From positions 97,380,748 to 97,444,747 of the forward strand of contig JAQMRL010000002.1 in the NCBI GenBank assembly GCA_035578175.1: a stretch of DNA of 64,000 nucleotides. The letters are read 5' to 3'. This document shows positions 37,801-40,800 of the stretch, piece after piece. The position numbers and the translations under genes are program-made. Position 1 is the stretch's first letter. The number at the start of each line of letters is the position of its first letter. The notes beneath the pieces were generated by a model, which saw nothing but the letters and a program-made list of their open reading frames with translations, was not told where the DNA came from and did no database searches. The DNA is from Catonia carolina. Its lineage: Eukaryota; Arthropoda; Insecta; Hemiptera; Achilidae.

Positions 37801-40800
37801 CAAAGTTACTTATGTTTCGGCGCCGATGCAGGTGTTCCCATTATCACAATCCAGGATGATCATGACCCCGATTAGTCCGAATCCAGGATAACCGAGGCCC
37901 AGATAATAGAGTTTGGACTGTATTACGATCAATTTTGATGCTAATTGGATATCCATTAAAGTATTATCAATTTAATCTGAATAGAATTGTCACCGCCACC
38001 CCTTCTAATTAATCATTTACTGTGTTGCCGGTCTTCAATAATTCTTCTGGCCTTGGTCGGCGCGGTAGGCCCTTTGGCGGCGTTTCGACAAACCCTTTAG
38101 CGGCGCACCGACAAACCTTTCGGCTGCGTTCCGAAGAGGGCTTTGTTGCCAAGGCCGAGCGAGTTACCGCCCCCTACCACAGCACTCTCAGTAACTATAT
38201 AAGCGCAGTGCACTGAGCCGCTTGTCATTACGCTCTACATCTCCGACGAAGATCGACCAACTACATCCACGAGATAAAGAAGGAAGATGCTCTGGGACTT
38301 GCAACAGCCAGCAACGCAGCAGCCGTTGCCGCAGCTCTCGCAGATGCCGCCGCCGCAGCAGTCGCAGCCACGCGCTGCCTACGCTGGTCTCCGAGACCAG
38401 CACAACGGTCCTTCTCAGGACCAATTTAATAAGGTTTTAACCGGCCCTTCTCAGGGCCATCAACCTGAGCCACGGCTCTCGTCGCAGCCACGCGCTGCCT
38501 ACACCGGTCTCCTTCGAGACCGGCACAATGGTCCTTCTCAGGACCAACTCATTAAGGTTTACACCGGCCCTTTTCAGGGCCATCAAATACCTCTGTCCGC
38601 CCCGGCGGACACACACATAAACGGCCCTTTTCAGAGCCACCAAACAGATAAGGTTCGCCACTGTATGTCACCATCCGGTGACAGAATGTTTAAAAACATT
38701 TTACAGGTATGCAGCATTTGCAATTTGATAACCATATAGTAGTATTCTTGGTGTGCTTTTATACACCTTTAAGAACAAAAATTTGTTGCGTAGAAATAAC
38801 AACAACCATTTCTGATACGGAAAGCAAATACCTTCCGAAGCAATAATTTCCGAAGGCACACGATCCTATTGGCTACGTAGTGAATGAAAGAAATTCCGTC
38901 ATGTTAAAGTAGTCTTTTAGAAAAAAGTTTATTCAATTTACTTTTCCAAGTAAAACACTTTTAATTACAGAGTTGTATCTCCAACTCTACAAAGCCCGTA
39001 CAAATTTTTTAAAGAAAACCAGGTGTAATGTTTTATCGGAAATTTAACATAGGCCCTACTGTTATTTCATGGACACTTTTATCATCAGGAAATCTTTAGA
39101 ATAGGAAATAATGTAAATTTTTCAACAAGTTAATTATTCCGCTATAATGTAGTATTTGTTAATGAACAGATATAATACCTATATGGCTTACAATACCTGA
39201 CAAGAATCTTTTTTATAATTCGCCGCACATATAGTTTTCTCTGGTGATATGTTCATGCGTTTGTTCAGTGTTAATCCCATGACCTGAATCGCTAAGGTTG
39301 ACAAATTCTTGCGACATTCATTAATATTTTTAATTTCAACTTCGGTTATTTTTAAGGCAGGTGAAGTAGCCTTGTTTTCCTATAACCAAATCAATCACAT
39401 TTATTAGAATTGCTGACAAAAGTGGTAGTTTAAAATAATATGAACAGTTTACAGCAAAAGACTTTCTTTCCATTAAGTTTGCGAAAGAAAAATAGGATTT
39501 AACTTAATTTAGAGAAGTTTTTCTATATCAAAGACTAATAAAAAAACCATTTCTTTAGTTTTCAGTATTTCGTTTGCCAGATAAAATAAAATGGATGATT
39601 GCGGGCAGTATACCTACCATAAAATTATATTATATTTATATTATAGGTACCATACTATTTATAATATATACAGGGTGATTCACGAAGATATGCAGAAACT
39701 TTAGGAGCTTATTGTACATGTAAAAATAATGAAAAAAGTTTATATAAACATGGGTCCGGAAATGCTTCGTTTCCGAGTTACGGCTAGCGAAAGTTTCGCC
39801 TGGATTTCAGTTCACCAGGTGAAATGAGGTCTTCCTGGAATTCTGGTAAGGTAGATTAAGGGGCGAATTCAATCATTTCTTATGGTTTTTGATCTGATAA
39901 ATTGAATAAAACGGGTCCGAGAACTGTAAGTTAAATAGTTTTTAAGAAAACCAGTGTCAAATGCAAAAAATGGAGTAAAAAACACATTTTTTCATCTTTG
40001 GGCAAGAATAACTTTGTTATTTCACCAAGAAACAGTTAAAATTTTTCAATAAAACATGTTGAAAATTTTATTCTGAACAAACCGGTGTAAATTAAGTACC
40101 CAGAAAGCGAATAGATGTTTGATTAAATGAATTTTTATTCATAAGAGTACAAAGTAAAATTAACCGGAAAAACTAAGATGAAAAAATGTGTTTTTTTCAC
40201 TCCATTTTTTGCATTTGACACTGGTTTTCTTAAAAACTATTTAACTTACAGTTCTGGGACCTGTTTTATTCAATTTATCAGGTCAAAAACCATAAGAAAC
40301 GATTGCATTCGCCCCTTAATCTACCTTACCAGAATTTCAGGAAGACCTCATTTCACCTGGTGAGCTGAATCTGGGCGAAATCTTTCGCTAGCCGTAACTC
40401 GGAAACGAAGCATTTCCGGACCCATGTTTATATAAACTTTTTTCATTATTTTTACATGTACAATGGGCTCCCAAAGTTTCTGCATAACTTCGTGAATCAC
40501 CCTGTATTTATATTATCACTTTTTTTTATAAAGTGACAATATAAATCTAAAGTGATGACGTTCCGCGGTTATTTAGTTAGTGATGTCAGATCTACATTCA
40601 ACATATTCTTAAATGGATATTCAGTTTGTCCATATAGGCCTACTGTTATAATGAAGCGGCGGAAAATGAAATCAGCTGTTTATAAACTGCTGACTGGTAA
40701 ATTATAAAGACGATACATTTGGCGGATCATAAAATCAGCTGTTCATAAACAGCTGACCGATTAAATATAAAAACGAAGCATTTGATTGTTGGAGTGCCGC

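Follow-up and report, generated by a model that had tools for sequence, protein, structure and literature searches.

The window, a 64,000-nucleotide stretch of Catonia carolina (Hemiptera, Achilidae) DNA on contig JAQMRL010000002.1, contains a solo long terminal repeat (LTR) of a Ty3/gypsy-type superfamily whose genomic RNA would end by histone-type 3′ processing rather than at a poly(A) site, a reading to which we assign a probability of about 0.78. The LTRs of this superfamily almost certainly carry the host's histone 3′-end signal in the right place, because their stem-loop, the ACCAAA flank (as in H2A, H2B and H4) and a downstream AGGTT equal those of the host histone genes. At the expected R/U5 junction the LTR has, to all appearance, every part of a histone 3′ processing signal of the host type.

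A preliminary description of this DNA had proposed a solo LTR with TG..CA ends flanked by a GAAT duplication, together with a TATA box and an initiator, and all of these are borne out (Table 1). It had also placed a single consensus stem-loop 45 bp before the LTR end. That terminal stem-loop is present at the proposed distance, but the LTR contains five matches instead of one, and the terminal copy, which satisfies the IUPAC consensus, has a stem interrupted by a C.A mismatch.

Table 1. Coordinates of the two window LTRs and of the elements within them (window numbering).
Feature	Position	Strand	Evidence
Solo LTR (first LTR), TGTCACC...GGTGACA	37988..38683	+	Sequence read; related copies in genome
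Target site duplication GAAT, left	37984..37987	.	Sequence read
Target site duplication GAAT, right	38684..38687	.	Sequence read
TATA box, TATATAAG	38196..38202	+	Sequence read, hexamer scan
Initiator-like TCATTA, putative R start	38225..38230	+	Inter-LTR U3 similarity ends at 38220
Open frame, 132 codons, spanning the stem-loop array	38287..38683	+	In some full-length copies continues into gag
123-bp unit, 1.9 copies, two histone-type stem-loops per unit	38361..38586	+	
Histone-type stem-loop 1	38407..38422	+	Consensus scan, Rfam
AAGGTT 3′ of stem-loop 1	38431..38436	+	Sequence read
Histone-type stem-loop 2	38443..38458	+	Consensus scan, Rfam
Histone-type stem-loop 3	38530..38545	+	Consensus scan, Rfam
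AAGGTT 3′ of stem-loop 3	38554..38559	+	Sequence read
Histone-type stem-loop 4	38566..38581	+	Consensus scan, Rfam
Terminal histone-type stem-loop (fifth)	38623..38638	+	Consensus scan, Rfam, alignment; RNA 3′ end predicted 4-5 nt beyond
ACCAAA, same as 3′ of host H2A, H2B and H4 stem-loops	38639..38644	+	
AAGGTT, proposed histone downstream element common with host histone genes	38650..38655	+	
U5 terminal hairpin TGTCACCATCCGGTGACA, LTR end	38666..38683	+	Sequence read, folding
Second LTR, same superfamily, CACT duplication	60852..61475	+	BLAST, sequence read
Terminal stem-loop GGCCCTTTTCAGGGCC of second LTR	61415..61430	+	
AAGGTT of second LTR	61442..61447	+	Sequence read

The host's own histone genes provide the reference for this signal. 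They form a tandem cluster at C1:21.255-21.284 Mb, where stem-loop matches alternate in strand with a period of ~6.25 kb. The reading frames of H1, H2A, H2B, H3 and H4 stop 39-55 nt before GGCCCTTTTCAGGGCC, which is followed by ACAAAA in H3, by ACCAAA in H2A, H2B and H4, and by GCCAAA in H1. Farther downstream, AGGTT is found at +15 in H3, at +17 in H2A, H2B and H4, and at +18 in H1. It occupies +15 to +18 in 20 of 21 host histone sites, all of them belonging to five tandemly repeated gene types; the exception, an H2A copy, lies apart from the main array. Its place and conservation make AGGTT the best candidate for the host's histone downstream element. The common possession of stem-loop, ACCAAA and AGGTT by LTR and host histone genes supports the earlier proposal that the LTR stem-loop is a histone 3′-end signal. 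Host H4 and H2B genes (L081, L082, L083, L085) also have an AATAAA 8 nt upstream of the stem-loop, overlapping its 5′ flank. The pieces of the histone cluster contain no U7-type Sm site (AATTTGTC followed by T or A).

Exact matches to the consensus GGYYYUUHUHARRRCC number six in the window, compared with 0.06 expected, and none of 100 shuffles had six. Five of them fall in the first LTR and the sixth (61415) in the second. A lone chance stem-loop is ruled out by these counts. Histone3 is the top Rfam family by E-value in the first LTR, with five matches scoring 19.5-26.8 bits, and the terminal stem-loops of four other copies reach 31.0-32.5 bits.

Similarity between the two window LTRs is confined to U3 and the last 66 bp. 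In a BLAST comparison of the window LTRs and fetched copies, U3 aligned at 76% (37988-38220 with 60852-61063) and the last 66 bp, which comprise the stem-loop and U5, at 91% (38618-38683 with 61410-61475); the middle stretches, of 397 and 346 bp, gave no mutual match at an E-value of 1e-5. The second LTR is diverged. Across the stem-loop it has 28 contiguous nucleotides in common with host H2B, 27 with H4 and 26 with H2A, and the first LTR shares only 16 with host histone ends because of its stem mismatch. The preliminary description had named lack of conservation among aligned family members as one result that would refute its proposal. Related copies were sought in the genome (1.47 Gb in 142 contigs), 40 of 3,982 candidates being scored, and the stem-loop proved conserved. 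In an alignment of 40 rows (38 locus rows, both window LTRs among them, and the window LTRs repeated as the last two), 31 have GGCCCTTTTCAGGGCC unchanged as their terminal 16-mer, and every one of the 12 young-subfamily rows belongs to these 31. Changes between families in the aligned LTR ends fall mainly in the spacer and U5. Two further features of the window LTRs concern their surroundings and their U3. Both carry 23-bp tandem repeats in U3 (38070-38134 and 60935-60977), possibly a promoter or enhancer repeat, and the second LTR sits inside a repeat (60301-61617) containing 131-bp tandem units (60455-60811); this repeat, LTR included, has itself spread to other places in the genome.

Genome-wide, the 18-mer stem-loop pattern GGCCCTTTTCAGGGCCAC occurs 4,655 times (2,279 + 2,376), and its reversed control does not occur (0 + 0). 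These sites include histone genes, decayed copies and copies within amplified repeats, and their number is not a count of elements. We examined 70 sites among the first 100 listed, made up of the 30 loci of an initial listing and 40 more; the rest of the hundred were 15 histone sites of the main array, four sites seen elsewhere (one of them a young LTR) and the last 11. The sample includes one histone H3 end (L090), and its sites share descent and are not independent. The search pattern itself fixed the stem-loop and the AC that follows, and the sample tests the flanks and AGGTT only. In 55 of the 70 sites AGGTT falls between +10 and +19 (+12 in 34, +16 in 8), compared with 1.6% when these stretches were shuffled. 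The stem-loop is flanked by AAAC on its 5′ side in 52 sites and by ACCAAA on its 3′ side in 46. An LTR end of the GGYGAYA type was found in 43 sites, in 40 of them jointly with AGGTT. Among the first 30 loci, 10 could be delimited as LTRs with duplications and 20 could not.

At least three kinds of end carry the signal: one ending in ...CCGGTGACA; one ending in ...GGTCGGCGACA, of which L065 was delimited as an 828-bp LTR with a TTAT duplication; and a third repeat (L057, L094, L095, L125). The third repeat is nearly identical across its loci and has the same stem-loop, with AAGGTT at +18 (AGGTT at +19). Some LTR ends (L086, L108, L118) contain two consecutive stem-loops, and AAGGTTT follows the second only.

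Full-length elements with this LTR, which the preliminary description had suggested searching for, are present in the genome. Young copies have the primer site TGGCGCCC(G)AACGTGGGGC, which we take to be of the tRNA-Lys type, directly 3′ of the 5′ LTR, the purine tract GGGGGGAAT before the 3′ LTR, and 4-bp duplications. In the three full-length copies whose LTR pairs were compared, all three pairs were free of mismatches. Pfam matches over cut-off in separate pieces of one copy (Ty3_capsid, RVT_1, RT_RNaseH, Integrase_H2C2 and rve) were accompanied by protease models below their cut-offs, and the gene order in full-length copies is that of Ty3: gag, protease, reverse transcriptase, RNase H, integrase. 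On gene order, LTR pair, duplication, primer site and purine tract, the elements classify as Ty3/gypsy-type LTR retrotransposons. When the gag frame of one copy (L027) was searched against a protein database, 7,994 candidates were scored and none reached E <= 0.001. The copy number of the 123-bp unit varies, and young LTRs carry 4, 6 or 8 stem-loops.

Two short elements without gag-pol also retain the stem-loop and AAGGTT. One (L062, 924-2456) has identical 637-bp LTRs, a CAAA duplication and a 259-bp interior; the other (L071, reverse strand, 915-2392) has identical 646-bp LTRs, a TAGT duplication and a 186-bp interior. The identical LTR pairs of the full-length and short elements rule out an old, dead oddity and show that carriers of the signal must have been active recently.

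The LTRs were scanned for 13 poly(A)-type hexamers. The proposed lack of AATAAA holds for the first LTR, from which ATTAAA is also absent; GATAAA and CATAAA are its only hexamers out of the 13. In six young LTRs, of which two are solo and four are followed by the primer site, the TATAAA of the TATA box is the only one of the 13 present. Elsewhere, the second window LTR has CATAAA at a TATA-like site and L035 has AAGAAA in addition to its TATA box; in the short elements, L062 has GATAAA and ACTAAA besides the TATA box, and L071 has the TATA box alone. AATAAA and ATTAAA are lacking in nine of ten further delimited LTRs, the tenth (L068) having ATTAAA in its spacer. The absence of hexamers fits a histone-type end and is no proof of one.

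These observations suggest how such an element RNA could be made. In the known pathway, SLBP binds the stem-loop and the U7 small nuclear ribonucleoprotein (snRNP) the downstream element, and CPSF73 cleaves the RNA at a point between these two sites that lies 4 nt past the stem-loop in Drosophila and 5 nt in mouse (PMC7026596). Applied to the first LTR, transcription would start near 38227, and RNA of the 3′ LTR would fold the terminal stem-loop, which SLBP would bind. The U7 snRNP would pair with the downstream AAGGTT, and CPSF73 would cut 4-5 nt past the stem-loop, at ~38642. R would then extend from ~38227 to ~38642 (~415 nt), with U5 formed by the last ~40 bp and the downstream element located within U5. 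The RNA end would then fall at the place that an LTR element requires. During minus-strand transfer, R would anneal to an RNA end that lacks a poly(A) tail. From the signal we infer that the element RNA lacks poly(A), depends on SLBP and U7 and is biased towards S phase. Linkage of this RNA to the cell cycle is plausible, and the presence of the signal suggests that the elements have tied RNA production, and perhaps jumping, to the histone machinery. In its broadest form, which we favour with some reserve, the whole LTR superfamily, with its many copies in several recently active families, would have swapped polyadenylation for the host's histone 3′-end machinery, so that production, export, translation and decay of a poly(A)-less genomic RNA would follow SLBP and S phase and cDNA would be made during replication of the genome.

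Several observations weigh against histone-type processing. At the Rfam gathering score of 34 bits, Histone3 had no match in the window, and the best copy reached 32.5 bits, although this cut-off may not fit the host. The Rfam model of U7 (RF00066) found no match in the genome, a result made uninformative by its silence in the control genomes (0/14). The terminal stem of the first LTR is imperfect despite its match to the consensus. AAGGTT follows stem-loops 1, 3 and 5 of this LTR, and cutting at 1 or 3, inside R, would be premature. The signal is also present in the 5′ LTR of full-length copies, where early cutting would have to be avoided; the poly(A) signal of retroviruses poses a comparable problem. 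AGGTT is missing within 30 nt of the stem-loop in 15 of the 70 sampled sites, and in the commonest LTR type it is spaced at +12 compared with +15 to +18 in the histone genes. Finally, shuffling indicates that the absence of AATAAA is ordinary by chance in a stretch as short as R plus U5.

The stem-loops might instead serve only to bind SLBP, without histone-type 3′ processing. The first four stem-loops of the first LTR's five lie upstream in R and would stay inside the RNA, some LTRs offer weak hexamers (GATAAA and CATAAA in the first window LTR, AAGAAA in L035, ACTAAA in L062), and some animal poly(A) sites function without AATAAA. However, the terminal stem-loop is accompanied by the host's downstream AGGTT, which only 3′ processing should need, and no listed hexamer beyond the TATA box occurs in the six young LTRs or in L071. 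In the LTR ends with two consecutive stem-loops the downstream element follows the second only, but the first LTR does not conform to this pattern. We consider a role confined to SLBP unlikely. Far less credible is a generally hairpin-rich R/U5 serving dimerisation, packaging or strong-stop control, with a coincidental likeness to histone ends. R plus U5 does fold far more stably than its shuffles (z -6.2, 0/100 as stable), and several hairpins of the array are not histone-like, which also counts against histone-type processing; against coincidence stand the contiguous nucleotides common to the second LTR and host H2B, H4 and H2A (28, 27 and 26), together with the common AGGTT.

The array could also be a coding repeat, in which selection acts on repeated peptides of an N-terminal Gag extension (TGPSQGHQ among them) and the resemblance to histone ends has come about incidentally. 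A stop-free frame of 132 codons runs from the ATG at 38287 to the end of the first LTR, the same ATG frame in L027 comprises 419 codons through the capsid domain (467 amino acids from an upstream TTG), and the 123-bp unit length is a multiple of three. In both short elements a 64-codon frame with an ATG spans the stem-loop, which is also a point against the RNA-signal reading. Their LTRs cannot be called frame-free: the frame is there and encodes a different peptide. On the other side, synonymous permutation of codons within the peptide gave five matches in none of 20,000 trials and four in two, a result weaker than it looks given that the tandem duplicates are non-independent. Between stem-loops 1 and 2, T3-A14 is replaced by C3-G14, a paired change that joins a silent Gly position with an Asp/Gly replacement and keeps the pairing; copies with a single-sided stem change also exist (for example L002), and this weakens the argument. 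The distance from the stem-loop to the LTR end is 44, 45, 50, 51 or 53 nt in 19/30 loci where the end was found, and therefore the frame is not kept. In L029 the ATG frame ends after 177 codons. In L062 and L071 the gag-extension frame crosses the stem-loop without an ATG, and that of L071 meets a stop in U5; the short elements keep the stem-loop in another frame and peptide, and therefore it is the nucleotide sequence that is preserved and not the peptide. Codon permutation, the variable frame to the LTR end and the short elements lead us to reject a coding repeat as the sole cause, and as an account of the array it is improbable. The stem-loops also encode GPSQD, GPSQG and GPFQG. The R-region frame crosses U5 and the primer site into gag (L027 449-1709; window 38287-38683), forming a repeat-rich N-terminal extension, and the number of units in this extension varies with the 123-bp repeat.

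Elsewhere in the window, transposon-like frames lie at 22381-23133, 33011-33649, 42163-42612 and 50033-52980. By eye we take them to be a PIF/Harbinger-type nuclease, two pieces of Tc1/mariner-type transposase, and a non-LTR element with a PHD finger, an endonuclease and a reverse transcriptase.

If histone-type processing does form the ends of these RNAs, it would amount to a further means of defining R, and it would give retrotransposition a direct route of coupling to S phase. RNA-seq on poly(A)-selected libraries would also tend to miss the elements. The thousands of stem-loop sites in one genome could be a natural collection for studying what SLBP and U7 accept.

To our knowledge, the LTR elements described so far form their RNA 3′ ends by polyadenylation. 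An open-literature search, covering top-ranked results and mostly titles and the beginnings of abstracts, found no LTR element with a histone-type end. The accessible portion of a study of Drosophila retrotransposon small interfering RNAs and 3′ processing factors (PMC5392987) describes no histone stem-loop in an LTR.

The elements agree with Ty3/gypsy in their TG..CA LTR ends, 4-bp duplications, primer site, purine tract and the order from gag to integrase. They differ in that the young LTRs examined show no usual poly(A) signal, in that a histone-type stem-loop and downstream element stand at R/U5, and in that the R-region reading frame continues into gag. The two young short elements, whose identical LTRs enclose 259 and 186 bp, resemble the short non-autonomous elements known as terminal-repeat retrotransposons in miniature, although their LTRs of 637 and 646 bp are longer than is typical of that class. 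Compared with replication-dependent histone mRNA 3′ ends, the 16-nt stem-loop, the ACCAAA flank and AGGTT are the same as in the host genes; here, in contrast, the signal sits on a retroelement, AGGTT is mostly at +12 or +16 rather than at +15 to +18, and some families have tandem stem-loops. According to PMC1924863, the histone mRNA ends of C. elegans combine the stem-loop with another conserved element, AATCC, at the position of a putative U7 site. By the same account, these are cellular histone genes, mostly with a conserved poly(A) signal.

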